In this document: positions 4,549 through 43,747 of the stretch, piece after piece
How positions within the stretch are numbered: the first letter of the stretch is position 1
Layout: every line of letters starts with the position of its first letter
Position numbers and translations under genes: made by a program
Notes under the pieces: model-generated
What the model saw: only the letters and a program-made list of their open reading frames with translations
The model's database searches: none
Told to the model about the DNA's origin: nothing
Source: Owenia fusiformis
Taxonomy: Eukaryota; Annelida; Polychaeta; Sabellida; Oweniidae
Assembly: GCA_903813345.2 (NCBI GenBank)
Contig: CAIIXF020000005.1
Span: 21,207,375-21,271,374 of the forward strand
Direction of reading: 5' to 3'
DNA length: 64,000 bases

Positions 4549-5068
4549 AGATTCCGATAAATCGGGCTACATATACCGCGTATTTACATAAGGGGATTAG
4601 AAGGGTTTATTTTTTATTTAGGTATGCAAGCTATATAAAATTAGGCCTTCTAGCATGCATGTACTCGTGTGTACAATCAGTATGCCCTTCAATATTATAT
4701 AAACACAGTGTTACTATACCAGGCTATTCAATATGTACTACATAATGTACACTATTTATGTGTGTACTATATGGGAATACGATTCCCCGTGAAACAAAAG
4801 ACAAATACTTTTTATATGTCCAAAATGAGACATTTGATTGATACATACACTAAATAGCTTCATAAATAACATCTTCAAAGTATATGTAATAGTAATGTTC
4901 AATTTCAATGGTGAAACTTCCCTGGTTACGATTATACGGGAAATCATCACGAGACGAAGATTGTTCGCCTTCCTGGCTTACCTCTGAATCGTGTACCTGG
5001 TAATCTCTTTATATAGTTTAGCGAGAGCGGTGCGCCTGCGCAGTTTTAAACTTTGGCGCACACTTTAA
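4549..5068. mobile_element. 520-bp insertion with TTTAA duplication
   Basis: Compared with the left arm of the palindrome, where CTGTTTAAGCAC is continuous (inverted), the right arm reads CTG-TTTAA then 515 bp of unrelated DNA then TTTAA-GCAC. This is a clean filled site against an empty site, with a 5-bp (or TTAA 4-bp) target duplication at 4544-4548 and 5064-5068. The termini AGATTCC and GCGCACAC are not inverted repeats. The insert contains a GC-rich TGCGCCTGCGCAG segment at 5030-5045, unlike its surroundings. Confidence 0.55.
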
Positions 5069-5760
5069 GCACATCATCATCTAAATTCTGGACAGTTGTG
5101 TCTGTAGCATAGGTTCTCTTCAGGAGAGTATAGAGACTCGACATACATGTTCATGGAATAGTGGATACATGTTGTAGATCTGGGACATTTGTTGCTTGCT
5201 TTCTTCTTCTAAACAGGGGTGTGATATGGTCTAAGCCTTCAAGAAGTCAAATGCTAAGATTAATTAAAGCACCTTACATCAAAAAGGTATCTGGTGTTAT
5301 CCAGAAAACTGAATTAAATTCATTTGTTCAACCCATCTGTATCTGGTGTTATCCAGAAAACTGAATTACATTCATTTGTTCAACCCATGATAGAGATTTA
5401 ATAACCTAAATGTTCAAGGTATGAAAAGTGGGCGTCGCCCATGATTAGTCTTTAACAATGATGAAAATCGATGATAAATCATCTTGTTATGTTTGCAAAA
5501 TTTGTTTACCATGAAAATAGCACTCTAAAACTGTAGTATGACCATATTCAAAGAAATTTTTTATGAAAAAAATATTTCGATATCTCCCCACCCCCATGGG
5601 ATTTGGTGGGATGGGGTACTTACTATTTTTTGATCATTCTAGTGGACCACAAAAATGGCTCTGGCTCTTAAATCAAAGGGAATGGTATTCTGATGATATG
5701 TGGAAAGTTTCACGCTTTGTTCTGAATGAACTATTTTTGCACTATTGATCTCGCTATACA

Positions 5761-6000
5761 AGGGGAGGAAGAAAATCAGCAATCTAGAACACTTTCATAT
5801 CCAACAATGTTAAGGCTGAGGCTATAATATTAGAGAGCTTTCAATATAAGTTACATGTATTTGGTAAACTTGTACATAAACTTCTACTAGTAAATGAAAA
5901 TACATGGTGTTACATAATGGGGGCTATTAGTCAAAAATCTCTGGATGTCGGATGTGATATAACATTCAAATGGATACCATTTATAACTTTTAACTGTATT
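5761..6000. other. No recognised feature
   Basis: About 240 bp of AT-rich sequence between two mobile elements; no gene or repeat was recognised. Confidence 0.5.
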
Positions 6001-7230
6001 TATCCCAACGAACGAAGTTCGGTAGGGATATAGTGAAGCCCTCCGTCCGTCCGTCCGTCTGTCCGTCTGTCCGGAAGATAACTCAAATATTAGTTGACGG
6101 ATTTTCTTCATAATTGGTGGAAAGCTGTATATTGATAAATAGTTTTACGCAAAAAAAAATTTTTTCAAGATGGCCGCCGCTTTAAAAATGACGGGACTTT
6201 TTCGCAAAAATCATAAATTTTTCATTCTAAACCAAAGTAATTAATATTATTGTTTGAAATTTTGGTAGTATATACGCAACATCTATCTATTTCACATATA
6301 TTCCGTGTTTTTCATCCTGACCCCAAGGGGCCGTGTATGGGGGGTCAGGAAAACAGAAATTTTCGCTAATTTTTAGATCTTTCTGAATTATAGCTTTATT
6401 ATACTCAAATGAAAGGCAATTAAGAGTAGATTGCAAATATTGTATCTTTTTTCTGATTCGAGCCTCGTAAAATTCAAAATGGCCGTCTAATGTACGATTT
6501 CGCAATAATTTTTCGATCCCTTCAAAGTATGGCTATATAATACTCAAATTGAAGGAATTTTGGAGTTGATAACAATTATGGTATTATTTTTCAGATTTGT
6601 ACCTCAGAAAATTCAAAATGGATTTTTTCAAGATGGCCACCGCTTTAAAAATGACGGGACTTTTTCGCAAAAATCATAAATTTTTCATTCTAAACCAAAG
6701 TAATTAATATTATTGTTTGAAATTTTGGTAGTATGTTCCCAACATTTATCTATTTCACATATATTCTGTGTTTTTCATCCTGACCCCCAGGGGCCGTGTA
6801 TGGGGGGGGGGGGGGTCAGGAAAACAGAAATTTTCGCTAATTTTTAGATCTTTCTGAAGTATAGCTTTATTATACTCAAATGAAAGGCAATTAAGAGTAG
6901 ATTGCAAACATTGTATCTTTTTTCTGATTTGAGCCTTGTAAAATTCAAAATGGCCGTCTAATGTACGATTTCGCAACAATTTTTCGATCCCTGCAACGTA
7001 TGGCTATATAATACTCAAATTGAAGGAATTTTGGAGTAGATCACAATTATGGTATTATTTTTTCAGATTTGTACCTCAGAAAATTCAAAATGGCTGCTTT
7101 GCAGGAATTCGCAATTCTAAAATCTAAATTTTTCAATTTTAACCAAAGTAATGAGTATAATTGATTGGAATTCGGTAATTGATATTTTGTTCGTTGGGAT
7201 TTGCTACTCCGCGGAGTTGCCATTATCTAG
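6001..7230 (+). mobile_element. Rolling-circle element, family A copy 1
   Basis: Non-autonomous Helentron/HINE-like element. The 5' end TATCCCAACGAACG is followed by a GTCCGTCC/GTCTGTCC simple run (6048-6075). The core is two tandem copies of a 463-bp unit (6161-6623 and 6624-7086), each with 'caagatggccgccgc'. The 3' end has GTTCGTTGGGAT (7189-7200), the exact inverse of 5' bases 6002-6013, then a perfect palindrome ACTCCGCGGAGT (7206-7217), then CTAG at 7227-7230 followed by TT. An asymmetric inverted repeat, a hairpin about 13 nt from a CTAG end and a T-rich target are hallmarks of Helentron-type elements. There is no replicase/helicase, so it depends on a helper. Frames inside it are repeat shadows. 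Confidence 0.75.
7189..7230 (+). other. 3' terminal hairpin, family A copy 1
   Basis: Subterminal inverted motif (7189-7200), 12-bp palindromic stem (7206-7217) and the terminal CTAG (7227-7230) of the rolling-circle element. This is the expected termination signal region. Confidence 0.7.
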
Positions 7231-7958
7231 TTATTATCTGTCAGATGTCTTGGTCTAAAATAAAACAGGTTTCTTTATGATATGTACATTATAGGTCTAT
7301 CTTATCTCAAACTGAGTTTGGAGGTGAACATTACGAAACACCCTATACAAATACTGGAGATAGATTTTGTTATATACCCAAATGGCTCGCTCCAGGAATC
7401 GTTAACACAGATTGGATTGATTAATACATGTATATCAAAATGGTAGTCAAAGTGTTTGGTCTGTTTCTTTTACATATTCATCTTATTAATTTTGAATGGA
7501 CTTACAGTTAATTGTATGACACACATGAGCATGTTATGGTTTACATGTAAATCCAATTTATAAGTTTACCATCATCATGCATTTGTCTTTTTATATGTTC
7601 TAAACTTACCACTTAAACTTTTGTATGAACTGTGAAACATTTCCCGCGTTAATTGAAATGAACCATGTTAAAGGGTCCTGTTTGTAGAACACCATGCCAC
7701 AATATTGAGTTGATAATTGTTGATTACACTGATGCCATGGATATTACTTTCGCAGTCACTGATTGATGAATGAGGTTCATAAAAACTATATAATTTCAAC
7801 TGGGTACAATTCCTGAAAATCAAATTCAAATTGATTTTAGTGTGACAAGTACAAGTTTACGTATACGTTTTCAAAGCAACTTTTATCGAAGCTCTCTGTT
7901 AATGAATATGAAACTTTTAAATATTTTCTATTATTATTTATTTCTCTTATACATTTAG
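7231..7958. other. Probable intron, no feature seen
   Basis: Low-complexity-free AT-rich DNA upstream of an exon. No repeats, RNA genes or further exons were recognised. A pyrimidine-rich tract ending TTATACATTTAG at 7958 is the acceptor of the following exon. Confidence 0.5.
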
Positions 7959-8170
7959 GTCACAGCCTTATTAGAGAAGCAACAACTTGAAGCTGCTCTA
8001 GATTGTGCACCTTCCAGAGGCTCTCTAGGCCCCGTTATTGGCACCCAAGCCCCTAGTACTACTAATACAAGCCCCGTTTTTAACCAGTCCAGTTTAGGTT
8101 CCGGCCAAAGCTTCTCTACAAGACTGCCCAGTAACATGGATGTCATGGATGATTTCTACAATCTTATAAA
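7959..8170 (+). CDS. Host gene exon (partial, internal)
   Basis: A 212-bp exon bounded by a pyrimidine-rich acceptor (TTATACATTTAG) and a good donor (AAA|GTATGT). It is open in one frame and encodes 70 residues plus two bases. The start is VTALLEKQQLEAAL, helical and possibly the end of a coiled coil, then a Ser/Thr/Pro/Gly-rich linker, ending NMDVMDDFYNLIK. It leaves AA, which joins T of the exon at 17174 to make Asn, and the frame then stays open for 144 codons. The smooth join, composition and splice sites make this the best-supported gene here. I do not recognise the family. Earlier exons were not found and presumably lie left of the window. Confidence 0.7.
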
Positions 8171-8924
8171 GTATGTGTGTTAATTTGTTTGTTGTTTGTT
8201 TATTTGTTTGTTTGTGGTGCCTCGTTTTTATAGCTAATTTAATTAAGAATTAAGTGCCATGTGATGGAGCACTGTAGTGTGGGTCTTAGGATTTTTCTAT
8301 TACTCGCCAATTGCCAAGTAACTTGTGTTTTACACTCGCCAGTGAAAAATTATGTTCGCCAGTGTATATCTTTGTTTTTGAAATGTTGCCCATTGTTCCC
8401 TTTTGTCAAACCTATGTATATAAACAATCAAGTGGTGGAAGCTTAATTTAATTGACTACTTGTCAGAGGTCTGGACTAAAAAAAATAAATTAGCCAAAAT
8501 AAAATAAAAAAAAAATTTGCAAAAATATCAATTGTCAGCCACTTTACCCGATTCATGCGAGCGAAGCAAGCTCAAGGAGGGGCCTAAGTCTCCCCCAAGA
8601 AAATTTCTATATTTATACCTTCAAAATTGTGCAATCTAAGCATTTCCAGGAAATCTTTCAAAAGCTTACCTTGATGCATTTTTTAAATTTCACATTTTGT
8701 ATATCCTAATCATATTTTATTCCATGTCAAATTCTAAATCCCAGTCAATGCAATGAAATGTAATCACAGCTGTATATCTGAATGGCTTTGTATAAAAAAC
8801 CTCCTACCTCATACCCACCTACCCATATGTGGGACATGATACAGTCATTGAAGGGTTCAAGATTTTTAAATCTCAAAATAGCTCTCTAATTATTAACATT
8901 TCTACAATTCCGGCTTTATTTTAT
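8171..8924. other. Start of 9-kb intron, no feature seen
   Basis: AT-rich intron sequence with TTTG-type low complexity just after the donor (8185-8215). The motif 'actcgccagtg' recurs near 8305-8365. Nothing coding was recognised. Confidence 0.45.
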
Positions 8925-9102
8925 GACTAGACGGATGCCAGATCCATAAATAAAGACATATGGGTGCATTGTAATGTGTTAATGACCCAAGGGCACCCCA
9001 GGGGAATAACTAACTAACGACCGCGAGCATAGGTCCAACAAGCCAAGATAAAGAAATTGAAAGAAAGTGTGCTAAATTCGATGCCCGAGTGGGAATCGAA
9101 CC
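8925..9102 (-). mobile_element. tRNA-derived SINE, head truncated
   Basis: Read on the minus strand it starts with TGGGTTCGATTCCCACTCG, a T-arm/B box plus acceptor-like GGGCA (9079-9102), followed by a non-tRNA body. The A box and D arm are missing: the element breaks abruptly at 9103, where the family C repeat array begins. It is either 5'-truncated or cut by the later array. Confidence 0.55.
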
Positions 9103-10530
9103 CAGCTTGTCTGTCAAGGCTTGTCTACAGGTTTCCAGCCAAATCGTTTGAGGGATTCATTTGAAATTCTCAGGGATGTTTCTATCTATGAAAGTTTAGA
9201 AGTGATTAGTTTTTCGGCATTCTGGGTAAATGTTAAGGCGGCCGTTTTAGATTTTCCGTCCTAAAATCTTGTCTGTCAAGGCTTGTCTACAGGTTTCCAG
9301 CCAAACCGTTTGAGGGATTCATTTGGAATTCTCAGGGATGTTTCTACCTATGAAAGTTTAGAACTGATCAGTTTTTCGGCATTCTGTGTAAATGTTAAGG
9401 CGGCCACTTTGAATTTTCCGTCCTAAAATCTTGTCTGTCAAGGCTTGTCAACAGGTTTCCAGCCAAACCGTTGAGGGATTCATTTGAAATTCTCAGGGAT
9501 GTTTCTACCTATGAAAGTTTAGAACTGATTAGTTTTTCGACATTCTGGATAAATGTTAAGACGGTCATTTTGGATTTTCCGTCCTAAAATCTTGTCTGTC
9601 AAGGCTTGTCTAAAGGTTTCCAGCCAAACCGTTTGAAGGATTCATTTAAAATTCTCAGGGATGTTTCTACCTATAAAAGTTTAGAACTGATTAGTTTTTC
9701 GGCATTCTTGGTAAATGTTAAGGTGGCCATTTTGGACTTTTCGTCCTAAAATCTTGTCTTTCAAGGTTTCCAGCCAAACTGTTTGAGGGAGGTCGCCGGG
9801 TTGGCCTAGTGGTTAAGGCATTGGTCTGAAAAGCAGGAAGTCTGGCTTCAGGCTGAAAAAGTAGAGGTCTTGGGTTCAAACCCAGGTCACAGCACTTCTT
9901 GTGATTTGTCTTTGACCTATGACTGCTGACCTATACTGGCGATTACTAGAGTGCTGCTAACTCGATAAAAGGCTGGCGCTGGCTAGAATTGTCTATGGTT
10001 CTAGCCAGGATAAATATACCAGTTCTTCAACTCGACAATGGGAAGAACTGCTCTACCTTAGTGACTAATATGTCATGATATGACATCTAAAGAGTCAATA
10101 AAAAAGATATATATTCATTTGAAATTTTCAGGGATGTTTCTACCTATAAAAGTTTAGAATTCATTAGTTTTTCGGCGTTCTGGGTAAATGTTAAGGTGGC
10201 CATTTTGGATTTTCCGTCCTAAAATCTTGTCTGATAAATGTTAAGGTGGCAATTTTGGATTTTCCGTCTTAAAATCTGGAGGCTTGTCTACAGTTTCCAG
10301 CCAAACCGTTTGAAACTGATTCGTTTTTCGGCATTCTGGGTAAAAGTTAAGGCAGCCATTTTGAATTTTACGTCCTTAATCATGTCTGTGAAGGCTTGTC
10401 TACAGGTTTCCAGCCAAACCGTTTGACGGATGCATTTGAAATTTTCAGGGATGTTTCTCATATTGTAGTCCTCCCTAAACCATGATTCTTTATCTTTGTT
10501 CAAGGGTGCGATATTGTTCACCATGTGTGT
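9103..10530 (+). mobile_element. Rolling-circle element, family C copy 1
   Basis: A tandem array of 161-162-bp units (anchors 'cttgtctgtcaaggc' at 9106, 9268, 9430, 9591), each with 'ccagccaaaccgtttgaggg', 'agggatgtttctacctatga', 'ggcattctgggtaaatgtta' and 'ggccattttggattttccgt'. It is interrupted by a SINE at 9791-10113. The right end carries CAAGGGTGCGAT (10501-10512), the inverse of the 5' motif of copy 2, followed by a GGTG/CACC hairpin. The 5' terminus is missing. No protein is encoded. Confidence 0.6.
9791..10113 (+). mobile_element. tRNA-derived SINE
   Basis: Pol III-type SINE. The A box TGGCCTAGTGG is at 9802-9812 and the B box GGTTCAAACCC at 9873-9883. A long variable region like that of class II (Leu/Ser-type) tRNAs lies between them. 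A roughly 220-bp non-tRNA body follows, ending in an A-rich/TA-rich tail (10095-10113). It splits a 162-bp repeat unit between GAGGGA and TTCATTT, so the empty site is known from sister units. No target duplication is visible, which is odd for a LINE-mobilised SINE. Confidence 0.75.
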
Positions 10531-10612
10531 ATTATTTAAGTGTAAGTTGTATAAGCTTGATTTTTTAGGTTAAACTTGGAGAAAATGTCGTTTGACCTAA
10601 AATAATATTTTT

Positions 10613-12530
10613 ATCGCACCCTAGGGTGCTATATTGTAATCAGTTTGCCGGGCGGTTGGGCGCGCGGGCGTCCCAAATAATCTTGTCTACAGGTTTCCAG
10701 CCAAACCGTTTGAGGGATTCATTTGAAATTCTCAGGGATGTTTCTACCTATGGTGGTTAAGAAATGATTAGTTTTTCGCCATTCTGGGTAAATGTTAAGG
10801 TGGCCATTTTGGATTTTCCGTCCTAAAATCTTGTCTGTCAAGACTTTTCTACAGGTTTCCAGCCAAACCGTTTGAAGGATTCATTTGAAATTCTCAGGGA
10901 TGTTTCTACCTATGAAAGTTTAGAACTGATTAGTTTTTCGGCATTCTGGGTAAATGTAAAGGCAGCCATTTTGGATTTTCCGTCCTAAAATCTTGTCTGT
11001 CAAGGCTTGTCTACTGGTTTAACCGTCTGAGGGATTCATTTGAAATTCTCAGGGATGTTTCTACCTATGAAAGTTTAGAACTGATTAGTTTTTCGGCATT
11101 CTTGGTAAATGTTAAGGCGGCCATTTTGGATTTCCGTCCTAAAATCTTTTCTGTCAAGGCTTGTCTACAGGTTTCCAGCCAAACCGTTTGAGGGATTCAT
11201 TTGAAATTTTCAGGGATGTTTCTACCTATGAAAGTTTAGAACTGATTAGTTTTTTGACATTCTGGGTAAATGTTAAGGCGGCCATTTTGGATTTTCCATC
11301 CTAAAATCTTGTCTTTCAAGGCTTTTCTACAGGTTTCCAGCCAAACCGTTTGAAGGATTCATTTAAAATTCTCAGGGATGTTTCTACCTATGAAAGTTTA
11401 GGGATGATTAGTTTTTCGGCATTCTGGGTAAATGTTAAGGCAGCCATTTTGGATTTTCCGTCCTAAAATCTTGTCTGTCAAGGCTTGTCTACTGGTTTAA
11501 CCGTCTGAGGGATTCATTTGAAATTCTCAGGGATGTTTCTACCTATGAAAGTTTAGAACTGATTAGTTTTTCGACATTCTGGATAAATGTTAAGACGGTC
11601 ATTTTGGATTTTCCGTCCTAAAATCTTTTTGTCAAGGCTTGTCTACAGGTTTCCAGCCAAACCGTTTGAGGGATTCATTTGAAATTTTCAGGGATGTTTC
11701 TACCTATGAAAGTTTAGAACTGATTAGTTTTTTGGCATTCGGGGTAAATGTTAAGGCAGCCATTTTGGATTTTCCATCCTAAAATCTTGTCTGTCAAGGC
11801 TTGTCTACGTGTTTCCAGCCAAACCGTTTGAGGGATTCATTTGAAATTATCAGGGATGTTTTTCCCTATGAAAGTTTGGAATTGATTAGTTTTTCGACAT
11901 TCTGGATAAATGTTAAGACGGCCATTTTGGATTTTCCGTCCTAAAATCTTGTCTGTCAAGGCTTGTCAACAGGTTTCCAGCCAAACCGTTTGAGGGATTC
12001 ATTTGAAATTCTCAGGGATGTTTCTACCGATAAAAGTTCAGAACTGATTAGTTTTTTTTGCACTCTTGGTAAATGTTAAGGTGGCCATTTTGGATTTTTC
12101 GTCCTAAAACCGTGTCTGTGAAGGCTTGTTTTAAAAAATAAAAAAGAATTTCCCATTGAGAGCAATGTTAAATTAAAACATTTTTTAGAAATAACTATAA
12201 ACAGTCAATCTTTCCAATTTTCACATATTTTTTTGTAATACATTAGTATATCTTTTACCAGGATTTTTGTTCAGGAAAATCTGAATTGTAGAAAAAAAGC
12301 TGATACACTGTGAAGTAATACCTTAAAACGTGTCTCTTGAGGGTTGTTTACAGGTTTCATGGATTCATCCTAAAATTTTAGAGATGTTTCTATGGAAAGT
12401 TTAGAACTGATTAGTTTTTAGGCAGTCTGGGTAAATGTTAAGGCGGCCATTTTGAATTTTCCAATTTTCCATCCCGAAAAATGTATTCTGTTCAAGGGTG
12501 CGATTCTGTTCACCATGTGGCTTATTTTCT
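10613..12530 (+). mobile_element. Rolling-circle element, family C copy 2
   Basis: The 5' end ATCGCACCCTAGGGTGC (10613-10629) is followed by a GC-rich 'gccgggcggttgggcgcgcg' segment (10648-10667). About nine 160-bp tandem units with the same sequence as copy 1 follow, then a spacer (12130-12345) and one decayed unit. The 3' end has CAAGGGTGCGAT (12493-12504), complementary to the 5' ATCGCACCC, then CACC (12511-12514) able to pair with GGTG. The design parallels families A and B, but I cannot fix the last base. Confidence 0.6.
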
Positions 12531-13439
12531 ATTGTTTTCATTTCATTTACTTTCGACTCAAAGAAATTATGTCCGCCTGGGGCGATTGTCAAGTGGATAC
12601 GACCTATACTGCACTGTCGTGCTCGATGTTGGTTTTTCATAAAAATAGAAAAAATATCAATTGATTTATTGGATTAAATGTGGAATCTGTCATGGGGTAA
12701 GAGAATTTCAAAATTGAATGACAGTTTAGATAACCTAGACTATATCCTCTAGTTTGATTTTTTTTTGAAATTTGGAATGAAAATATTTAGACTATAGCCC
12801 ACATATGTTAAAATTTGGGATTGAAAATTATTTGTTTACATAGGAAGTGCCATTCAAAATGGCCGATTGGGTAAATTAATTTGCATATTTGTTACTTCTC
12901 CTAGCTTTATTTCCATCTGACAATATGCTGTGTTACTTTTTATAGCATTTAATTGTACCTTACTGCTTAATTGAATTGTTATAATGCTTATTTTTGGGAA
13001 GTGAAGTTTCCTAAAATTGAAAATTGTGTGCAGGAAATTTCCTGTATTTTCCCACCGGAGGGACATAATGATCAATAGACTGAATTCTCAGGAAATTCAG
13101 TCTATTGGGTATAGACTATTAGATAACCACTGTGTTCTTTATCACAACAAATAGAACAATAAATCCCTGAGACATTATCAAAGTGTACATACATGTACAG
13201 TTATTTCAAAGATTTAATGCAGAAATAGTCCAATCAAGTGTTCACATTGAAATAATATCTTCATATTAAAGAAGTTCTGATATTTTGTGGAGTCAGTGGG
13301 AAATTCTAAAGGAGTGGTATCGATATGGAGAACTGAATTCAACAATGTTTTTCTTTTAAACCAATCATTGAAAACATTCTGTAAAAGAACACAGTATTTT
13401 CAGGGCTTGCATTAACGGCGTCCTGTACATGTTTGTTTG
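12531..13439. other. Intron sequence with one strong hairpin
   Basis: AT-rich DNA without recognisable genes. The only marked structure is the 14-bp perfect stem at 13073-13107. The short segment 'aggagtggtatcgatatgga' (13303-13322) returns inverted just upstream of the next exon (near 17065-17095). Confidence 0.4.
13073..13107. other. 14-bp perfect stem-loop
   Basis: CAATAGACTGAATT, a 7-nt loop (CTCAGGA), then AATTCAGTCTATTG. It has the same outline as the family B 5' hairpins (TAGACT...AGTCTATTG), so it may be the 5' terminus of a related rolling-circle element. Confidence 0.5.
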
Positions 13440-14728
13440 TTTTTATTTTTTATTTATAGTGGTATTTATACAAAATAAAGTCAAACAAAATAAGTTTATG
13501 TAAAACAACCCAGCCTACTTTGGGCTTACTAACCACTTCTAATAACATTTAATAACAAGTTCAAAATATAAATATAAGTAACAGGTTCATGGATCATTAT
13601 AAATCAGCTGCTGTCTTCTTACATGTGCCTCTCTAATATATTTAACAATGTTACAAGTCTTATTTTCAAAAAGATATTTAATTCTTAAGCCATCAGGCTG
13701 TATATGATGATTCAAATTACCAAAATATTTCTCCCAAAGGTCCTTATATACCTCACAATAAAATAGGAAATGGGCCTCTGACTCAACCTCATTATTGTTA
13801 CATAGGGTACAAATTCTATTTTCAACTTTTTCTCCTCTAAATCGCCCTGTTTCTATGTGCAGGGGTAAAATTCCTAATCTTAATTGAGCCGAAAGGCTCG
13901 GCTCAATTTTGTAAAATTAAGTGAAAGGTATTTTTCTGCTTTAAAATCTGTCTTAAATGTTGCATATGTTCTTAATTTAGGTTTTGCCTTTACATTATTT
14001 AACCATTCTAGAGTATAATTATTTAAGAGCCTCCTTTTTAAAAGGGTTAAATCAACAAAATCAGTATTTACATATTTTGCTTCCATTTCAACAGATTGTA
14101 ATATACATGTACTTCTAACTGCCTTCATCCAGTTATTATTGCGGTCTTTACTCCATTTAAAAATTCTTTTAGTAAGGCGACCACTTTCAAGATTTACAAA
14201 CCTGTTCCACAATCTTACAGTTTCTATCTTATGTACAATCTCTAATGGGAGATACCCTGTCTCTCTCCGAACACCTACTAGAGGGGCAAAGCGATGAACT
14301 CCAAGTAAAAATCGTTGTGCCCTATTATGAAACTTATTACATACTTTAAGCATGTGTTGGTCACATCCCCAGACTCTTACAGCATAATTTAAAACAGGGG
14401 TTACACAAGAATTGTAAAGTTTTGTGAATGTCTTAAAACCTATATCACTGACACCCTTACAACGATTAATGATAGAACCAAGGGCTCTGCTTGCAGCATC
14501 AGACAATGTATTGGCGGTTTTAACAAAATTTCCAAACTCACTGAAGAAAATCCCAAGGTGTTTATAATCACTAGCAATTTTAAGTCTTTTACCCTCAAGT
14601 GTAAATATGTAATCAGTTACTTTATTGTTTTTGGGTCTAAAGTGTAAAATATTTGATTTGTCAATATTTGTCCTCAATCTCCATTTGAAGCACCATTTAC
14701 TTACAATATCTAGCATTTGCTGCAATTT
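13440..14728 (-). mobile_element. Non-LTR retrotransposon, 5'-truncated
   Basis: LINE copy running right to left. It starts abruptly near 14728 in the reverse-transcriptase region, contains the decayed ORF2 end, a 3' UTR of about 140 bp and an A/T-rich tail (13440-13460 on the plus strand, rich in AAATAAAAA when read on the minus strand). 5' truncation is typical of target-primed insertion. It lies inside the host gene's intron, antisense to the gene. Confidence 0.75.
13587..14725 (-). pseudogene. LINE reverse transcriptase C-terminal part
   Basis: 281 open codons (14725-13880) give the RT tail: LRTNIDKSNILHFRPK near the start, then DYKHLGIFFS, and the thumb-like TPVLNYAVRVWG around residue 115. 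It then ends early at TAA. The next frame carries on at once with LRLGILPLHIETGRFRG, then a CxxC...HFLFYC knuckle typical of LINE C-termini, and stops with TGA at 13587. One base is therefore gained or lost near 13890-13900. The catalytic YxDD region is absent because of the 5' truncation. It is dead. Confidence 0.8.
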
Positions 14729-15277
14729 ATGTTAAGGACTCAAAAATAATTTGGAGGATGCAAAAATTGAAAATATTTCCGTTTTTTGGACGCAAAATTT
14801 TTTAGGTCAATACTACAATGTGTTTACAACGATACCTAACAAAAACAAATAATTATGATCTCTCACCTTTATTTGAATCATAAATAAGGCTCAACATGAT
14901 GAATATTTACAAATAATCATGATTCTCTTGAATTTTTTCGACTTAGATTTGAAACCATGACACGCCACAGTTTTTCCTATTCAGAAACAAATATAAGGTT
15001 ATTCATGAAATAAAATGTATTCATTGTCGAATGAACAAACATGCATTTATTCAGTCCGTACTTAACGTTTACGTCCGTTTTAAATTCACGGCAAGATTAA
15101 TTAACTTCAAGGTGTTTTGGTAAAAAATGCTTTTAAAATAAAGTTATACCTAAAAACAGGCTAGAAATAGGGGACACACTTTTTTCAAAGGACACACTTT
15201 TTTAAAAAATTGCGTCCTTGGGACTCACAAATTTTCTAACCTAATGCAAGCGCTGATTTTATGTAATGTTGACTGAT
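14729..15277. other. Intron sequence, nothing recognised
   Basis: AT-rich DNA with a short direct repeat 'gacacacttttttnaaa' (15172-15205). 'ggactcaaaa' near 14735 and 'ggactcacaaattttctaac' near 15230 are similar. No gene was seen. Confidence 0.4.
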
Positions 15278-16576
15278 TATCCCACCGAATGTAGTTCGAG
15301 AGGGATATAGGAAAGCCGTCCATCCGTCCATTCGTCCGTCCGTCCGTCTGTTTGTCCGGGCGATAACTCAAATACCGTTTCACGGATTTGATTCAAATTT
15401 TATAGGCTTATGCCTTATGGGTGTAGGACCTCTGCTCGAGAAGGAATTTTCAATATGGCCACTGAATTCAAAAAGGCCGCGATTTTTTGTAAAAAATGTA
15501 ATCTTTAATAACTCAAATACTAGTTAGCGCATTTGGTTCAAATTTTATATGCTGATGCCTAGGGACAAAGTAGATATTTTCGAGTAAAAATTTTCAAGAT
15601 GGCGGCTAGATTTCAAAATGGCAGCCATTTTTCGTAAAAAAACTTAATCTTTGATAACTCAAATACCAGTGAACGGATTTGGTTCAAATTGTATATGATG
15701 ATGCCAAGGGACACAGTAGATCTGTTCGAGTTACAATTTTCAAGATGGCCGCTGAATTTCAAAATCGCGGCCATTTTTCGTAAAAAAACGTAATCTCTGG
15801 TAACTCAAATACCAGTTTTGGTTCAAATTTTATATGATGATGCCTAGGGACAAAGGAGCTTCGCTCAAGATGGAATTTTCGAAATGGCCACTGAATTTCA
15901 AAATGGCAGCCATTTTTCGTAAAAAAACGTAATCTTTGATAACTCAAATACCAGTGAACGGATTTGGCTCAAATTTTATATGATAATGCCTAGGGACACA
16001 ATAGATCTGTTCAAGAAAGAATTTTCAAGATGGCGGCTTGATATTCAAAATGGTGGCCATTTATCGTAAAAAAGATAATCTTTGATAAATCAAATACCAG
16101 TGAACGGATTTGGCTCAAATTTTATATCATGATGCCTAGGGACAAAGGAGATCTGTTCGAGAAAAGGTTTTCAAGATGACGGCTGAATTTCAAAATGGAC
16201 GCCATTTTTCGTAAAAAAACGTAATCTTTGATAACTCAAATACCAGTGAACAGATTTGGCTCATTTTTTATATGATGAATCCTAGGGACACAGTAGATCT
16301 GTTCGAGAACATTTTTTCAAGATGGTGGCTGAATTTCAAAATGGTAGCCATTTTTCATAAGAAAAAACGTAATCTTTGATAAGTCAAATACCAGTGAACA
16401 GATTTGGTTCAAATTTTATATGCTGATGCCTAGAAACACAGTAGCTCTGTTCGAGAAAAAATTTTAAGATGGCGGCTGATCTTCAGAATGGCTGCCATTT
16501 TTCATTTTCATAATCTTTGGTAACTCAACTGCCATTCGGTGGGATTTGCTACTCCGTGGAGTTGCTGTTTTTCTAG
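15278..16576 (+). mobile_element. Rolling-circle element, family A copy 2
   Basis: The 5' end TATCCCACCGAATG is followed by a (GTCC)n run (15319-15356). The core is about eight diverged copies of a 115-120-bp unit ('gataactcaaataccagtga', 'tttatatgatgatgcctagg', 'aagatggcggctgaatttca'). The 3' end has CATTCGGTGGGAT (16533-16545), a perfect 13-bp inverse of the 5' end, then the palindrome ACTCCGTGGAGT (16551-16562) and CTAG (16573-16576) before TT. There is no transposition protein. Confidence 0.8.
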
Positions 16577-16689
16577 TTGACAACAATTTAATGCAAAAAT
16601 TATTTAGAAATATTTTATATAACTGTTTTTGTTAACATTTTTTTTTTTTTTTAGTGCAATTATTTTTGCTCCTTTCTACCAATTCTTGA

Positions 16690-17012
16690 GAATAAAATAA
16701 AATGTCTTTCCGAACCTTGTTGGAACAAAATAGCATATACATGTACAGATGTACAACATATTTTAGACCTCTCAATATTATATAGTTATACGAAGGAATT
16801 TTTGGTTGATTTTAAAAAAGTATTCAAAAAATTAAAACAAAATCCCCCCAAAATAGATAAAAATCAAGATAAACCTTTTATTTCATTAACAAGATACTTT
16901 TTTAAAATCAACCAAAATTTCCTTTGTATAATTACAATATTGAGAGACCTAAACATGCTGTGTTTATGTCGTTTTGTTCCAATGAGATTCGGAAAGATGT
17001 TTCATTTCACTC
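16690..17012. mobile_element. Foldback MITE-like palindrome
   Basis: TCTTTCCGAA at 16705 returns as TTCGGAAAGA at 16988-16997. In between, 'ctctcaatatt', 'aggaatttttggttgatttt' and AAAAAAGTA are mirrored (16765-16820 with 16893-16950). Arms are about 120 bp, imperfect, with a short A-rich centre. It lies 160 bp before an exon and could form a hairpin in the pre-mRNA. Confidence 0.6.
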
Positions 17013-17173
17013 TGGAAACATGATACGAAGAACAAAACAAGTGTTTTGATGTGTTCAAAAAGTTCTCCATATCGATACTACTCCTTTGTTAAAATTTCGC
17101 ATTTTGAGGTCTTTAAAGAAATGTTCAAATATGCCATATGGTTCTCCAAAATATACTAGTTTGCTTATTTCAG

Positions 17174-17609
17174 TGAGGACCAAGAGGCAGGTGCTCCGCC
17201 AAAAGGAAAAGGATTAAAGTCAGTGATAAAAAACATTGCCAAACCAGGGTCACCCTTAGCAACCAAAAAGATGGACTATAGCGTCCCAAAACTTGCTGAC
17301 CCAGGAATAACATCATCTCAGAAGAAAGATGTTAAACAACCAAGTGCAATAAGAAAATCCAGTCCAGGGCCAATCAGAGACAATAAAGACACTAAACAGA
17401 GAATAACTAAAAGTGAATCTATCAAAATAAAATCAGAAAATGTCCAAACTGTGCCAAGTAATGATGATGTTACAAAGCCAACATCGAGTATAGGTGGTGG
17501 GTCATTGGATCAAGTGAAGCAGAAACAACAGGAGCACGAGCAACAACGTAGAGAGCTTCTTGGTCTGTCTAGCAGAGATAAGGTACTCTCGGAGAAGATG
17601 TCCCCTTGA
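17174..17609 (+). CDS. Host gene terminal exon (C-terminus)
   Basis: Acceptor TTGCTTATTTCAG at 17161-17173; the first base completes an Asn codon with the exon at 7959-8170. 144 further codons are rich in Lys, Ser, Pro and Gln, probably disordered, and end in a charged helical stretch (LDQVKQKQQEHEQQRRELLG) then SSRDKVLSEKMSP and TGA. The family is unknown. A rolling-circle element begins 12 bp after the stop, so any 3' UTR is transposon-derived. Alternatively the true exon ends at AAG|GTACTC (17582/17583), which would remove the last nine residues and splice to an exon further right; that donor is weak after +3. Confidence 0.7.
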
Positions 17610-17830
17610 ACTTGCTTAATTATCCCACCGAACGAAGTTCAAGGGGGATATAGAGAAGCCGTCCGTCCGTTTGTCCGGGCGATAACTCCAATACCGGTTG
17701 ACGGGTTTGGTTCAAATTTTATAGGCTTATGCCTTATGAGTGTAGGACCTCTGCTCGAGAAGAAATTTTCAATATAGCTGCTCAATTCAAAATAGCTGCC
17801 ATTTTTCGTAAAAAATGTAATCGTTGATAA

Positions 17831-18272
17831 GGCCATAAGAAGTAGATTCTTTGTTTTCCGTCCCCTTGCTTGCACGATTTTGAGTAAATCAGAAAAAACA
17901 AACACACCCAAATAGCAATCATAAGGGTCTAAAAGTACCACCGCATTTCGTTCAATCGGAATCAGACAAAATGGCGGATAATTTGATGTGCGTCAAAATT
18001 AACAGTGTTATTGATTACTTTGGCATATATTGTGTATTTTCTTATTTTTTACTATTGAATAATAGCTATGTTTAAACATATTGCATAAAATGTATAGATA
18101 TGTGTTTGTAATCACCGCAAATTGGTATGTCATCCCTTTTTATGCCCCTAAACTGCATACATTTCTCAGCAACAAGTTTGTGTTTTTCTTGAGTTTGTGT
18201 TTGTTTTCCTTGTACCCTTGCATGATTTGGATTTTGCCAGGACGCAAAACAAAGAATCTACTTCTTATGGCC
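17831..18272. mobile_element. Harbinger-like MITE, TAA duplication
   Basis: Perfect terminal inverted repeats of about 27 bp beginning GGCCATAAGAAGTAGATTCT, with TAA on both sides (17828-17830, 18273-18275). The interrupted sequence is the family A unit 'gataactcaaata', so the empty site is known. A 3-bp TWA duplication and a GG-start terminus suit PIF/Harbinger. There is no transposase, and the internal frame is not protein-like. Confidence 0.75.
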
Positions 18273-18853
18273 TAACTCAAATACAAGTTGACAGATTTGG
18301 TTCAAAATTTATACGCTAATGCCTAGGGACAAAGAAGTTTCGCACAAAAAGAGATTTTCAAGATGGCCGCTTAATTTCAAAATGGCGGCCATTTTTCGTA
18401 AAAATATGTAATCTTTGATAACCCAAATACCAGTGAACGGATTGGGTTCAAATTTTACATGATGATGCTTAGGGATACAGTCATGGTTCGACAAATTTTT
18501 TTCAAGATGGCCGCTTAATTTCAAAATGGCGGCAATTTTTTGTAAAAAACGAAATCTTTGATAACTCAAATACCAGTGAACAGATTTGGTTGAAATTTTA
18601 TATGATTATGCCTAGGGACACAGTAGCTCTGGTCAAGAAATAATTTTCAAGATGGCAGCTTAAATTTCAAGATGGCGGCCAATTTTCGTAAAAAAACGTA
18701 ATCTTTGATAACTCATATACCAGTGAACAGATTTGGTTCAAATTTTATATGATGATGCCTAGTTCACAATGGTATAAACTAACTTTGTGCCAAATTTTAT
18801 GCTTCTATCACAAAGTGCACAAACATTTCAACATTTACACTAGCTATAATAAT

Positions 18854-19871
18854 TAGTGGTGTCAATTTACAGCAAAAATCATTGGTCGATTAACTGAAGA
18901 TTTGACGGTTAAAGTCGGTTAACTGACAAAAGAATTACTCGATGATTTCAAAGAAAGATTTAAAAATACATTAATTCCCCGGGATTAATTCTATCAGAAT
19001 GATTTGAAAAATGATTAATCCGTGTTTATTTCTCAAATTCGTCAAGCTGTACCATATTGGTTTCACAGTTACACTACCCTTGAGTTACATACCACATTGG
19101 TTATCCTTTAGTTTCACTATAAACGCATAATAATAGAAAGAATAGCACTCGATTTTGGGTTGTTTGCAATTTGATTTTCACAATATCAAAGAGAGGCTAT
19201 GACCTTTGACATATAAGCTAGTACTGACAAAAACAATATGATCATGAATATAATTTAATGATCGTATCTCCCAATCGAATTTGTCTTATTAAATTAAAAC
19301 CAACACATATACTTTCGAGGGAAGTAATGCCTTGGTCACATTTGCTCTGATTTTCACTACGGTGCCCAGGCGATTGAGTATTTTGTTCAGAATTGAATAC
19401 AATATTGTACAAAACACTCAATTTGCTGGGCGCCGGCTGATGGATCGGAGCATATGTGACCCAGGCATTACATAAGGATTACAATGTTTCTGATCAGGAA
19501 GTAATTATCTGTCATGTGAGCGGCTGACACTTGGAAACGGATAAGCACAGGAATACTAAAGGATTAAAATGTTTCTGATTGCGTTTTTGTTGGAAGAATT
19601 ATGTGACGTATGAAGCCTAACTGGATCCAATTTTGACTGGTTATTGGTCAATTATGAGGGATTTATTTTTAGCGCCAAAACTTTCGAGCCAGTCACATTG
19701 CTTGAGCTTGACATGTGACCCTGGCATTTGAGAAAAACAAACAGATTAAGGGAAATTAATAAAACAAATAGGATTAAGTATTTATGGTCAACTAATTTGA
19801 GTGAAAATTTCTTACTCGATCAAGCTACTATCCGCGGTTAACCTTTTATCGGTTAACCATCGACAGCCCTA
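18854..19871. mobile_element. hAT-like element, 8-bp duplication
   Basis: The left end is TAGTGGTGTCAATTTACAG; the right end is the inverse of TAGGGCTGTCGATGGTTAAC. Flanks ATAATAAT and ATAATAAG are a near-perfect 8-bp target duplication. Subterminal GGTTAAC/CGATTAACTG motifs recur at both ends (18890-18920, 19838-19860). It carries the nested palindromic MITE at 19325-19470 and no transposase. Confidence 0.55.
19325..19470. mobile_element. Palindromic MITE, copy 1
   Basis: TAATGCCTTGGTCACAT at the left mirrors ATGTGACCCAGGCATTA at the right. Inside, GATTGAGTATTTTGTTCA mirrors 'tgtacaaaacactcaat' and both flank a GGYGCCC motif. Nearly the whole 146 bp is a hairpin. A second copy is at 26402-26545. 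Confidence 0.65.
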
Positions 19872-19935
19872 ATAATAAGCATAATATGTTTTGTTCGGTG
19901 GGATTTGCTACTCCGTGGAGTTGCTGTTTTTCTAG

Positions 19936-20736
19936 TTAAAATTCACATTGTGCTGTGAAATCACTTAGCATTAAGGTAGTCAGAGTACATCAAAGTTCAA
20001 GCCTTCTTGCAAATTATTCCAGGATTCTGTCTGATGTGTAAAATTTTGTAATACCAAAAGTATTCCTTAAGTTTGAAAAGAGGGCTTAGTATGCATGTTT
20101 TACAAATGTCCTCTCATTTCTGCATATTTTCTCCTTTAAATTCCGGCTTGTTGAGAATATGACATGTTGATTTCTCTTCATTTCACCTGCACATTATTTA
20201 ACTGCTATGAAATCTGTCATTTAATTGTTATACAATTTGTATTAGAGAGGTTAAGCTACATGTATTTAGCAAAACGTGAACTTCAATGCGTGCACATATA
20301 AATGATGTCAGATTTGTTTATTTTCTGTGGGTCAGCGTGGAGTTTACAGGATTTTACATGAGATTATCATATTGGTGCAATAACTCAGATGCGAGTCAGT
20401 ACACTGTTGCTCATGAATATGGAATATTTTATAGATACAAACTGATGGAATTTCTACAAAATGATAACATTTTGATGAAAATTTGTAATGTGTTCTCATT
20501 CCCTCATCAGTTTTGCATATAAAACTGATTGGTATGAAAAGCTAAAACATTTATGGTTGTTTAAACTTGTATTCACTTATTTGACCCCATGACCCCATGA
20601 TATTGGTAACTTGAAAGAGGTGACCAAATCTAATAGTTGTAATCATTGTGCACATTTTATAAAATTTTAATTTAGTGTTAGAAGAGTTTTTAGAAGGCAT
20701 ACCCCATAGAATAGGAGAAAAAGAGCATGGCTGGTC
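19936..20736. other. No gene; short dispersed repeat
   Basis: AT-rich. The segment near 20284-20365 (AATGATGTCAGATTTGTTTA...) resembles 22805-22880 (AATGACGTCAGATTAGTCTA...), so an old dispersed repeat is present. Nothing coding was recognised. Confidence 0.4.
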
Positions 20737-21677
20737 ATAGGGATGGCACTCTCTGGCATGAAACAAACTGCCATTGCCAGGAATAGTCTCTAAAATTCTG
20801 CAGTGGTACCAAAGTCACTGGAATGTGACTCCAGGTCACAGCAATAGTAGCCCTAGAGAGTAAAATGTAAGGAAAGACCACCACCTGCTACTGTCATCAA
20901 AATTGCTTTATATCAACCAGTAGTCTATGAGATGAATGGCTGTCTCACCTCAAAACCAGTGTTTCATATCTATAGTCAATCAATGATTTCTTTATAACGG
21001 ATGCAAGGCCATGGACCTTTAAAGAGACCACAGCTGACTGATCATAACAAAGAAAGGTGCCTTCAATGGGCAGGAAAGCACCAAAACGTTGGACCTAATC
21101 TTTGGTGTCATTTGACAGCATGTGAAGAGAAAAGATGTGTCCTCCACAAAGTTGATAATTGTGTTCCTTTCTGCCATAGACCAGAGGAAAGAGACAATAA
21201 GGACAGTGATGTGGCAGTCCATGAAGGCGATCCTATTTATGTTTTGAGCAGTATGACAGAGGTTGTTTGGAGCAGTAATACAGAAGTTGCACCCCCTTGG
21301 TTATTCCCAAACATAATTTCTAAGTAAATTGACCTTTTGGACCTCCACCAAGTACCAAATGTAAACAGAGTGTTTTGGGGCAACATTCAACTGCAGAATA
21401 ATCATGCTGTTGCATATGCTAGTGGCATCGTGTTGGATTACATCAGAGCAGGCAATGTGGACCAGCAACCATGGGCACAAAAGTCAGCCAATCAGGCTAA
21501 TGCAGAGCAAATGTGGGACGACCTTGGTAATGAGATTCGTGACAAAGACCCCCACCTCAAAATTTAGACATGTTACGCACTGCCCAGATTGAGGAATGGG
21601 GCCTTATTTCAGGTTTTATTCAATGCTGGTCCTGTAGGGTTGATGATTGCAGCAAAAGAGGACATAACACATATTAG
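20737..21677 (+). pseudogene. Tc1-like transposase, decayed
   Basis: Fragments in order match a Tc1/mariner-superfamily transposase. IGMALSGMKQTAIAR (near 20740) and VSKILQWYQSHWNVT (near 20790) are helix-turn-helix remains. PLKRPQLTDHNKERCLQWAGK starts near 21012, and a catalytic-core remnant with HKVDN and RPEERDNKD follows. VLDYIRAGNVDQQPW and QMWDDLGNEIRD (21433-21550) belong to the C-terminal DDE region. The last fragment is LDMLRTAQIEEWG up to TAG at 21675-21677. Several stops and frameshifts separate the pieces. The catalytic Asp residues are not intact and terminal inverted repeats were not found. Confidence 0.75.
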
Positions 21678-28065: not shown

Positions 28066-28500
28066 ATGTCCCCACCACATAGTGTGGGGCCATATTGTCG
28101 GCCTCGCGTCCGTCTGTCTGTCCGTCTGTCCGTCCGTACATCCGGCAGTTTTCTCCAAAACCACTACAGATATCACCTTCAAATGTTCAGGGATAACTTA
28201 TGAGTGCCTACAGATGTGGATGAAAAAAAATTAACTCGATACCTACTTCCTGTTGGCCATTTTGAAGTCAAATGCTAAAATCCTTGTCTGCAAACTTTAA
28301 GAAAAATGGCTTCACTGTTGCTTTTGAAATGTTGATATCTTGTTCAGCTCACTTCATTCTACATCTGATTAGGTTTTGGACCTGTTAGCTCAGTCATGTC
28401 AGCCATTTTGAATGTTTTAAGAAAAGTTAGCGCGTGATAATACTTTGTATCATATTGAATGGTGTTTTTCAGTTTTCATACTTTAACTATTTAGTAGCTT
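28066..28500 (+). mobile_element. Rolling-circle-like 5' fragment, family D
   Basis: ATGTCCCCACCACATAGTG begins the fragment and contains a CCCCAC/GTGGGG stem. A (GTCC/GTCT)n run (28108-28142) and a gene-free body with 'ggccattttgaagtcaaatg' follow. The layout is that of family A 5' ends with a different terminal motif. The 3' end is missing: the next element starts at 28508. Confidence 0.45.
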
Positions 28501-33389: not shown

Positions 33390-34777
33390 TTATTTTTCTC
33401 TACACATTTTCTCAATAACTAGAAGACATTGAGTCAAGTCCTTTATACAGTCAATTTAGGTTCAGTATCTAGTTTCTCGGAAATTGAGTCAATTTTTTAT
33501 CTAGGTCAAAGGTCAAGAACTAGGTCAAATCTTGTATTTTCATCATTTTACCAATTTTCTCAGTCGTTCTTCAATATTTTTTCTCGATCTTTTTTCATCA
33601 TGTTCCTTGGAAACAAAGCTAATTCCGTAAGGCAAATTGTTTTTTGATTGCTCTTACCGATTTTGAAATATGCCGTCCGGAAAATAGGTCACACCAAATC
33701 GTACTCCAAATTCAATGTATGAGTTATGAATTAGGGGTAGAATTTTGTCAGGAATCTGAATCTGCAAATCAAATTTCGATCCGACTTCCGATTCGGAAGT
33801 TATGTCGTTTTAAAACCTCAAAAATCGCTAAATTTGGTGCCCATGTTAAGTCAATGGGAAAAAAGATTTTTTTGAAGTGAGAAATACGAAATATAGACTG
33901 AGTTCAGCTTAATTTAATGAAAGCTTTTAAAAGAAGGGGACCTCAAAAGCCATCTAGCTTCAAAATTTTGACATCAAAATACCTAGGTCAAAATCTAGGT
34001 CAAATCCAAAGGTTTTCCTTATTTTTGCGATTCTGACACTACACTTTAATTATATTCCTCGAAATTGTGTATACATGTAGCCAAGAGTGTGCTAATAGTG
34101 TTAGCCTTTTGCCGTCAGAAAGTATTTTGACCCACTTTTGAGATATGATGTCCGAAAAGTAGGTCAAAATAAAAAGTTCTCCAAATTTAACGTTTGAGTT
34201 ATGAAATAAGAAATGAATTTTCTCAGAAATCCGAATCTGCAAACCAAATTTCGATCTGACTTCCGGTTCCGAAGTAATGGCGTGTCCGAAAAGTAGGTCA
34301 AAATAAAAATTCGCCAAATTTAACGTATGAGTTATGAATTAGGGGTAGAATTTTGTCAGGAATTCGAATCTTTAAATCAAATTTCGATCTGACTTCCAGT
34401 TCGTTTTGAAATTTCGGAAAATCGATCTGATGGTATCCTGATAGAAGGTCAAGAGTAGAGAAGTCGAAAATATTGAAAAATTTATCCATCCTTCCTATCT
34501 GATCTTATCCTATCCTATCCTTCCTATCTATCCTTTCTTCGTATCTTTTCCTTCCTACTTCCTATCCTCTCCTATCATATCCTTTCTTCCTATTCTGTTC
34601 TATCCTATCCATCTTTCTTATTCTATCTTATCGTTCCTTCCTATTCTATCCTATCCTACCTTCCTATTTTATTCATCCATCTTTTTCTGGATGACTCAGC
34701 TTATTCTGGATGACTCGGCTAAAAATGGTCTAAATCTGGAGTCTGAAATTGAACTTCATTCAATTTCCAAAGTCTAG
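33390..34777 (+). mobile_element. Family B unit, 1.39 kb
   Basis: Body without 5' hairpin, two subunits, a CTATCCTTC-type microsatellite (34490-34690), GGATGACTCGGCT repeats, then the 3' hairpin (loop TTC replaced by TTCA) and CTAG at 34774-34777. Confidence 0.75.
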
Positions 34778-34788
34778 TTATTATTATT

Positions 34789-35150
34789 AGACTCCAGATT
34801 GAAAATCTGGAGTCTATTGTTTTTGCCAGTATTCTTCTTATTATTAGACTCCAGATGTAAATCTGGAGTCTATTGTTTTCGTCAGTATTCTTCTTTATTA
34901 TTATTAGACTCCAGATTGAAAATCTGGAGTCTATTGCTTTTGCCAGTTTTCTTATTATTATAAGACTCCAGATGTCAATCTGGAGTCTATTGTTTTTGCC
35001 AGTATTCTTCTTTATTATTATTTTTATTATTAGACTCCAGATTGAAAATCTGGAGTCTATTGTTTTTGCCAGTATTCTTTATTATTATTAGACTCCAGAT
35101 GAAATCTGGAGTCTATTGTTTTCGTCAGTTTTCTTATTCTTCTTCTTCTT
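34789..35150 (+). repeat. Stacked family B 5' hairpins (six)
   Basis: Six heads in a row: 34789-34815, 34846-34871, 34906-34932, 34963-34988, 35032-35058 and 35090-35114. Each is AGACTCCAGAT, a short loop and ATCTGGAGTCT, followed by CTATTGTTTTTGCCAGTATT and a CTT/ATT run in which the next head starts. Loops vary (TGAAA, GTA, GTC). Only the last head has a body. Confidence 0.85.
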
Positions 35151-39911: not shown

Positions 39912-41286
39912 TTATTATTATTCTAAACACGTTTTCTCAATAACTAGAAGACATTGAGTCAAGTCCTGTATATGGTTAATTTAGGTCAATTATCTAGTTT
40001 CTCGGAAATTTGGTCAAATTTTTATCTAGGTCAAAGGTCAAGAACTAGGTCAAATCCAGTACTTTGTCACTTTTTTCGATTTTCTCGGTCGTCCTTCAAT
40101 ATTTTTGATCCGGGTTTTTTTCATTGTGTTCCTTATAAAAAAGTAGGAAAGCTAGGGTCGATTTAGTTTTTTGATATCTCAAACCGATTTCGAGATATCA
40201 GTGTCCGAAAACGAGGTCCAAAAAAAAATTCTCCGAATCAAATGTCCAGGATATTAGTCTTATAGAAAATTTTCTCAGGATTCCGAATCTGAAAACCAAA
40301 TTCGGATTGGACTTGGGGCTCGGAAGTTATGGCGTTTTGAAAGCTCAAAAATCGCTAAATTTGGTGCCCATGTTAAGTCAATTGGAAAAAAGATTTTTTT
40401 GAAGTAAAAAATACGAAATATAGACTAAGTTTAGCTTAATTTAATGAAAGCTTTTAAAAGAAGGGGACCTCAAAAGCCATCTAGCTTCAAAATGTTAATA
40501 TCAAAATACCTAGGTCAAAATCTAGGTCAAAGCCAAAGGTTTTCCTTATTTTTGTGATTCTGAAACCACACTTTAATTATATTCCTCGAAATTGTGTATA
40601 TATGTAGCCAGGAGTGTGTTAATAGTGTTAGCCTTTTGCCGTCAGAAAGTATTTTGACCCACTTTTGAGATATGGTGTCTGAAAAGTAGGTCAAAATAAA
40701 AAGTTCTCCAAATTTAACGTTTGAGTTATGAATTAATAGTAGAATTTTCTCAGAAATCCGAATCTGCAAACCAAATTTCGATCCGACTTCCGGTTGCGAA
40801 GTAATGGCGTGTCCGAAAAGTAGGTCAAAATAAAAATTCACCAAATTTAACATATGAGTTATGAATTAGGGGTAGAATTTTGTCAGGAATCCGAATCTTT
40901 AAATTAAATTTCGATCCGACTTCCGGTTCGGAAGTTATGGCGTTATGAAATTTCAGAAAATCGATCTGATGGTATCCTGATAGAAAGTCAAGAGTAGAGA
41001 AGAAAATATTGAAAAATGCATCCATCCTTCCTATCTGATTCTATCCTATCCTTCCTATCTATCCTTCCTTCGTATCTTTTCCTTCCTATCCTTCCTATCC
41101 TCTCCCATCATATCCTTTCTTCCTATTCTGTTCTATCCTATCCTTCTTATTATTCTACCCTATCCTACCTTCCTATTTTATCCATCCATCTTATTCTGGA
41201 TGACTCAGTTTATTCTGGATGACTCGGCTAAAAAATGTCTAAATCTGGAGTCTGAAATTGAACTTCGTTCAATTTCCAAAGTCTAG
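39912..41286 (+). mobile_element. Family B unit, 1.38 kb
   Basis: Same order as the 33390-34777 unit, with microsatellite at 41018-41190 and CTAG at 41283-41286, followed by a TTCTTTC run. Confidence 0.75.
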
Positions 41287-43742: not shown

Positions 43743-43747
43743 TTATT

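Follow-up and report, generated by a model that had tools for sequence, protein, structure and literature searches.

Bao and Jurka (2013) described compensatory mutations in the asymmetric terminal inverted repeats (ATIRs) of two Culex elements and proposed that pairing of the two ends serves to end rolling-circle replication (PMC3627910). In these Helitron2 elements, Helitron-1N1_CQu and Helitron-1N2_CQu, the 5' ATIR lies 0-2 bp from the end and forms a hairpin with downstream bases, the 3' ATIR stands directly before the 3' hairpin, and a switch of pairing partners was hypothesized. The DINE-1 elements of 12 Drosophila species have 13-bp subterminal inverted repeats (subTIRs) that vary between species yet are still inverted repeats, a partial inverted repeat beside the 5' subTIR, a (CCGT)n(CTGT)n microsatellite, central repeats and a 3' stem-loop, and they insert between TT (PMC2374699). 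The Cg_HINE elements of the oyster Crassostrea gigas carry a 5' subTIR of 11-12 bp, a local complementary inverted repeat of 7-12 bp at a distance of 1-12 bp, a microsatellite (GTCY/GTCC in several of the element types), tandem central repeats, and a 3' subTIR followed by a palindrome (PMC7492417). We report that these features are shared by three elements resembling non-autonomous Helentrons (HINEs), designated family A, in 64,000 nucleotides of the annelid Owenia fusiformis (assembly GCA_903813345.2, contig CAIIXF020000005.1, positions 21,207,375 to 21,271,374; hereafter the window), and that the two ends of each copy match each other exactly while differing from copy to copy. Coordinates are positions in the window, on the + strand unless otherwise indicated.

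Complementary ends in three family A copies

Family A consists of copy 1 (6000-7230), copy 2 (15277-16576) and copy 3 (17620-19935), each span running from the flanking TT to CTAG. All three share the same order of parts: TT, a 5' subterminal repeat (arm A), a local partial complement (arm B), a GTCC-type microsatellite, tandem central repeats, a 3' subterminal repeat (arm C), a palindrome, CTAG and TT. The sequence ATCCC directly follows the flanking TT, and the final base of CTAG lies 30-31 bases past arm C. When the 3' end motif TTCGKTGGGATTTGCTACTCCG is searched for with at most 3 mismatches, the window yields three matches (0.00 expected after shuffling), all of them family A 3' ends; hence the copies can be selected by their 3' ends, without consulting the 5' ends.

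Arm A is in each copy the perfect reverse complement of the arm C of that same copy: ATCCCAACGAAC (6002-6013) and GTTCGTTGGGAT (7189-7200) in copy 1, ATCCCACCGAATG (15279-15291) and CATTCGGTGGGAT (16533-16545) in copy 2, ATCCCACCGAAC (17622-17633) and GTTCGGTGGGAT (19893-19904) in copy 3. All 36 cells of the alignment (12 columns in three copies) are Watson-Crick pairs. The initial annotation of this DNA had stated that the ends differ between copies and stay complementary within each; this is so, and the positions and letters that it gave are correct. Only two columns covary, column 7 (A, C, C in arm A opposite T, G, G in arm C, for copies 1, 2 and 3) and column 12 (C, T, C opposite G, A, G), and both changes are mirrored in the correct copy and by the correct base. 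At column 13 the 5' base is G in every copy and the 3' base is T, C and T, giving G.T, G-C and G.T. The additional base that the initial annotation saw in copy 2 therefore divides into two parts: the substitution at column 12 is compensated, whereas the 13th pair is not a compensated insertion, because its change is one-sided and concerns the 3' arm only.

The A:C covariation looks real but thin, amounting to two events. That the arms drifted separately and match by chance is the reading that we hold to be the most improbable of all; it has in its favor that there are only three copies and that the feature was picked post hoc from a long window. The simulation of independent change, devised after the data had been seen, lets the arms vary separately on a star tree, given two changes per arm; both A:C matches then arise with P = 0.00017-0.00040, depending on the transition bias. 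This value and the published parallels (PMC2374699, PMC3627910) speak against coincidence. Reshuffling the ends among three copies cannot give a P below 1/6.

Calculated pairing energies follow the same pattern. Among the six partners tested for each arm A (three arms C and three arms B), the strongest is its own arm C in all three copies. Own A:C pairing amounts to -15.6, -16.4 and -16.4 kcal/mol in copies 1 to 3, compared with -9.7 to -14.6 kcal/mol for arm A with the arms C of the other copies.

Arm B provides an internal control. It lies 2-3 bases downstream of arm A in each copy (GTTCGGTAGGGAT, 6017-6029; GTTCGAGAGGGAT, 15294-15306; GTTCAAGGGGGAT, 17637-17649) and is partly, imperfectly complementary to it; own A:B pairing, at -8.1 to -10.8 kcal/mol, is in each copy weaker than own A:C pairing. 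Read as its reverse complement, the arm B of copy 1 keeps ACCGAAC, whereas arm A now reads AACGAAC and arm C has changed alongside it (column 7). In copy 2, the reverse complement of arm B keeps the end CGAAC, whereas arm A now reads CGAAT, again with arm C changed alongside (column 12). Indeed, the arm B of copy 1 favors the arm A of copy 3 (-13.6 kcal/mol) over its own (-10.8), and so does the arm B of copy 2 (-10.1 against -8.1). This suggests that copy 3 has the ancestral state, which arm B would have preserved, and that the changes were mirrored 1.2 kb away and not 2-3 bases away. Since arm B was left unchanged when A and C changed together, the coupling appears specific to the distant ends. 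This third-arm control, which is absent from the initial annotation and tells more than any other part of the element, is what is new here, together with a change within one subfamily (copy 2 versus copy 3).

Possible explanations: selection, pairing and the copying of ends

Selection for matched ends explains these observations best. The full reading, to which we give about an even chance, is that these are HINE copies in which A and C are kept complementary because transposition needs matched ends, most likely through a pairing of A with C that displaces B. Arm A would be able to pair either with the local, imperfect arm B or with the distant arm C. If transposition requires a match between both ends of an element, A and C would be held exactly complementary. 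In the course of rolling-circle replication, the arm C emerging on the displaced strand would take arm A away from arm B, and the A:C pairing, together with the 3' palindrome, would mark where the replicated unit ends. Subfamilies could then drift through paired changes in A and C, with arm B, for which an exact partnership would not be needed, staying behind.

The main alternative is that both ends are inverted copies of one site read by the same Rep-type protein, with a protein variant for each subfamily and no pairing of strands. We consider it a possible explanation, somewhat short of an even chance. Recognition by a single protein is, as a matter of general knowledge, the default for the ends of inverted-repeat transposons, and the definition of Helentron families by subTIR identity of at least 11 bp agrees with it (PMC4067079). 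Copy 1 may follow another variant of such a protein, since its central repeats measure 471 bp, as against 146 bp in copies 2 and 3, and it is like these at 22 of the 27 bases after arm C. Copies 2 and 3, for their part, are alike at all 27 of these bases, and their leaders are 91% identical across 131 aligned columns, so that a shared machinery is probable for them. Yet they differ jointly at column 12, where a position tolerated by the protein would be expected to vary in each arm separately. This single event is easier to explain by pairing than by protein reading. Pairing of the ends is thus favored as the mechanism but unproven, and what the initial annotation had offered as one of two possibilities, that pairing is needed for transposition, is plausible without being separated from recognition by one protein; it had, moreover, been proposed already in 2013 (PMC3627910).

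The other possibility raised there, that new ends are copied from the opposite end, fares poorly. Here conversion or template switching, in the course of transposition or repair, would make one end a copy of the other, and A and C would be alike by descent, not selection. Copying would likewise yield arms that are alike in each copy. We nevertheless find it quite improbable, on the evidence of the edges of the match and of arm B. Strict Watson-Crick matching of A and C stops at 12, 13 and 12 columns in copies 1, 2 and 3, and just outside the arms T faces T at the first two positions in every copy. When G.T is allowed, unbroken pairing goes on to column 17 in copies 1 and 3, to 13 in copy 2, and to 10 in the family B element described below. 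Among the inward pairs of copies 1 and 3 there is thus G.T, a pair that would not result from copying, and the G.T pairs past the arms would fit pairing better than copying. With G.T allowed, at least 5 extra pairs turn up at random window positions with a probability of about 0.011, but this extension carries little weight, because copies 1 and 3 are related and the stretch before arm C is T-rich. Arm B, a possible local template close at hand, is unconverted. Finally, in nine of the 11 oyster HINE types, subTIR pairs with one mismatch predominate (PMC7492417).

This last observation cuts both ways, and it belongs with several points that weigh against the reading that we favor. In the oyster types with a predominant mismatch, fewer than half of the subTIR pairs are perfect (PMC7492417), and the subTIRs of D. 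mojavensis DINE-1 differ by one mismatch (PMC2374699); these cases show that exact A:C matching is no rule among resident copies. A degraded relative of family A at about 55429-56200 (see below) is listed here as well, although its 5' end may have been lost, which would make it neutral between the readings. Mismatched resident copies of all three kinds may fit decay after insertion. The compensated events are two in number, in three copies from one window, and a match within each subfamily is also what recognition of the inverted repeats by a single protein would produce. Single-strand pairing, a replication intermediate and an autonomous partner are all unseen. We infer that the cause is selection and that the mechanism is pairing, in preference to one protein that recognizes both ends.

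A bolder version, which we regard as unlikely, is that it is strand pairing, and hardly the sequence itself, that matches the ends of Helentrons: any A and C would work provided that they are complementary and pair more tightly than A with B, the switch from A:B to A:C being the signal for the end. If this were true, elements would be free to drift by pair-preserving changes under one machinery.

Internal anatomy, further copies and other repeats

Between their arms the copies differ in the central repeats and, for copy 3, in later insertions. Copy 1 has a TCCG microsatellite (6042-6073), 2.0 units of a 471-bp central repeat (6159-7093) and the 3' palindrome GCTACTCCGCGGAGTTGC (7203-7220). Copy 2 has a GTCC-type microsatellite (15316-15359, limits set by eye), 7.9 units of a 146-bp central repeat (15362-16503) and the palindrome GCTACTCCGTGGAGTTGC (16548-16565). 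In copy 3, a short GTCC-type microsatellite (17660-17678, limits again set by eye) and 3.4 units of the 146-bp repeat (18273-18762) are followed by the same palindrome, GCTACTCCGTGGAGTTGC (19907-19924). The palindromes were read from the sequence; their common form, GCTACTCCGYGGAGTTGC, stands 3' of arm C in all three copies and folds as a weak stem. In copy 3, arms A and C lie farther apart because two insertions that are not the element's own (strand not assigned) are nested between them. The first (17831-18272) has inverted ends, GGCCATAAG..., with TAA at either side; the second (18854-19871) has the ends TAGTGGTGTC and TAGGGCTGTC and 8-bp flanks that are alike at 7 of 8 positions. The former would fit a PIF/Harbinger-like element and the latter a hAT-like one. 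None of the three family A spans contains a stop-to-stop frame of at least 120 amino acids.

In its leader, the degraded relative (about 55429-56200) is 67%, 75% and 77% identical to copies 1, 2 and 3; it has 130-bp central repeats and a 3' end, GTTTGATGGGATTTGCTATGC, at 56155. Within 55001-55440, the sequence that comes closest to a 5' arm for it has mismatches at 5 of 12 positions, so that no recognizable 5' subterminal repeat was found there; with its 5' arm unmatched, it was left out of the pair count as a fourth copy. A search for 5' ends anchored on the GTCC microsatellite yielded six anchors, all of them on the + strand; arms of at least 12 with a downstream partner were obtained in copies 1 and 2 only, the microsatellite of copy 3 being too short to serve as an anchor. 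A wider search returned arm pairs starting with TATC at 2837, 2895 and 13319 and, on the - strand, at 5391, 3981, 3391, 55103, 54780 and 59918, all of which were set aside because their contexts, judged by eye, are without HINE features. Scans of a viral contig collection with the family A 3' end, 5' end and central repeat, and of a genome contig collection with the 3' end, gave no further copy, an absence that says little, the two collections being viral and prokaryotic; one match to the 3' end pattern in the viral contigs (locus L001) was taken as chance, the 201 bases around it being without other family A features.

Family B is a second HINE-like family (9100-12520), with 162-bp central repeats. 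Its 5' end, ATCGCACCCTAGGGTGCTAT, occurs at 10613 and its 3' end, AGGGTGCGAT, at 10503 and 12495; both ends are present only in the element at 10613-12504. In this element, used here for comparison, arm A (10613-10622, ATCGCACCCT), arm B (10623-10632, AGGGTGCTAT) and arm C (12495-12504, AGGGTGCGAT) rank as in family A, the match of A being perfect with C (10 of 10 pairs) and short of one pair with B (9 of 10). A further 162-bp array lies at 54309-55335. Inside the array of family B, the stretch 9785-10110 resembles by eye a tRNA-derived short interspersed element (SINE; GTGGTTAAGGC ... GGTTCAAACCC); ARAGORN called no tRNA in 5000-21000, this SINE-like stretch included. A possible HINE 5' end at 28066-28140 consists of ATGTCCCCACCACATAGTGTGGGGCCAT followed by a GTCC microsatellite. 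Among the matches listed, its best downstream partners are of 9-10 bp and lie outside ATGTCCCCACCACATAGTGTGGGGCCAT; GTGGGGACAT occurs again at 55368. The region 34149-52470 contains recurrent tandem repeat blocks of 133 and 476 bp, TATCC-type microsatellites and 19-bp repeats, CTTATTCTGGATGACTCGG.

Classification and relation to described systems

By their sequence features, the family A copies belong to the non-autonomous Helentrons (HINEs) and represent related subfamilies; the HINE layout is found in all three. The view of the initial annotation, that the ends are those of Helentrons and are matched, is supported. HINEs have subterminal inverted repeats of 12-15 bp (11-12 bp in the oyster), and those of family A measure 12, 13 and 12 bp. 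The 5' repeat is near the terminus and the 3' repeat internal. A local inverted repeat, the imperfect arm B, lies beside the 5' repeat in each copy, as in DINE-1 and Cg_HINE, and a palindrome or stem-loop is found past each 3' repeat. Both flanks are TT in all copies. All three copies have a GTCY-type microsatellite and tandem repeats in the center, features that many but not all HINEs show, and coding capacity is lacking, as expected of a HINE. With the Helitron2 (ATIR) group family A shares asymmetric terminal inverted repeats and a hairpin at either end, an assignment that does not imply a protein clade. The 30-31 bases from arm C to the end are outside the range of 38-60 bp in mite Helentrons (PMC4067079) and nearly match the 20-30 bp or so at the 3' end of Helitron2 (PMC3627910). 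A canonical Helitron (Helitron1: 5' TC, 3' CTRR, insertion between A and T, no inverted repeats) was rejected on account of the inverted repeats, the 5' TTATCCC and the TT flanks; the 3' CTAG does fit CTRR.

Both the phenomenon of matched ends and its leading explanation, the pairing switch, are already in print, and the family A observation is one further example of a described pattern. In the literature found, the matching of the two distant ends of Helentrons has so far been proposed, not tested; our search, with most subscription journals outside its reach, returned no many-copy covariation study of Helentron or Helitron2 ends. In a text search of papers for six end sequences, none of the 20 papers listed, judged by title and the start of the abstract, was on transposons. 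With variation at the level of copies, and arm B as a built-in control, the pairing-switch idea of 2013 becomes countable in a high-copy genome.

Among known systems, Cg_HINE is likened to family A by layout, the letters of the subTIRs being no part of that comparison; Cg_HINE elements mostly have one subTIR mismatch, whereas none of the three family A copies does (PMC7492417). Oyster Helitrons have subTIRs in 257 of 751 intact elements, with a 5' inverted repeat in 33% of those 257, but among the elements with subTIRs a microsatellite is found in only 1, and insertion is mostly between A and T (PMC7992393). The Helentrons and HINEs of mite, Culex and Drosophila share subTIRs, a 3' palindrome, TT insertion and, in some, tandem repeats; in the mite elements the subTIRs are themselves palindromic, whereas the local inverted repeat of family A is separate, as in DINE-1 (PMC4067079). 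The FoHeli elements of Fusarium oxysporum likewise have ATIRs partly inside hairpins, and subgroups with distinct but matched ends. They are longer, at about 5 to 11 kb, and for one subgroup joined ends have been evidenced by polymerase chain reaction (PMC5148889). The DINE-1 subTIRs listed start with ATACC, TATACC or TACCC, and those of family A with ATCCC; DINE-1 subTIRs vary among species and types, those of family A among copies in one window (PMC2374699). In Helitron-1N1_CQu and Helitron-1N2_CQu, finally, the compensatory changes keep both the ATIRs and the 5' hairpin (PMC3627910), whereas in family A the ends changed together and arm B was left behind.

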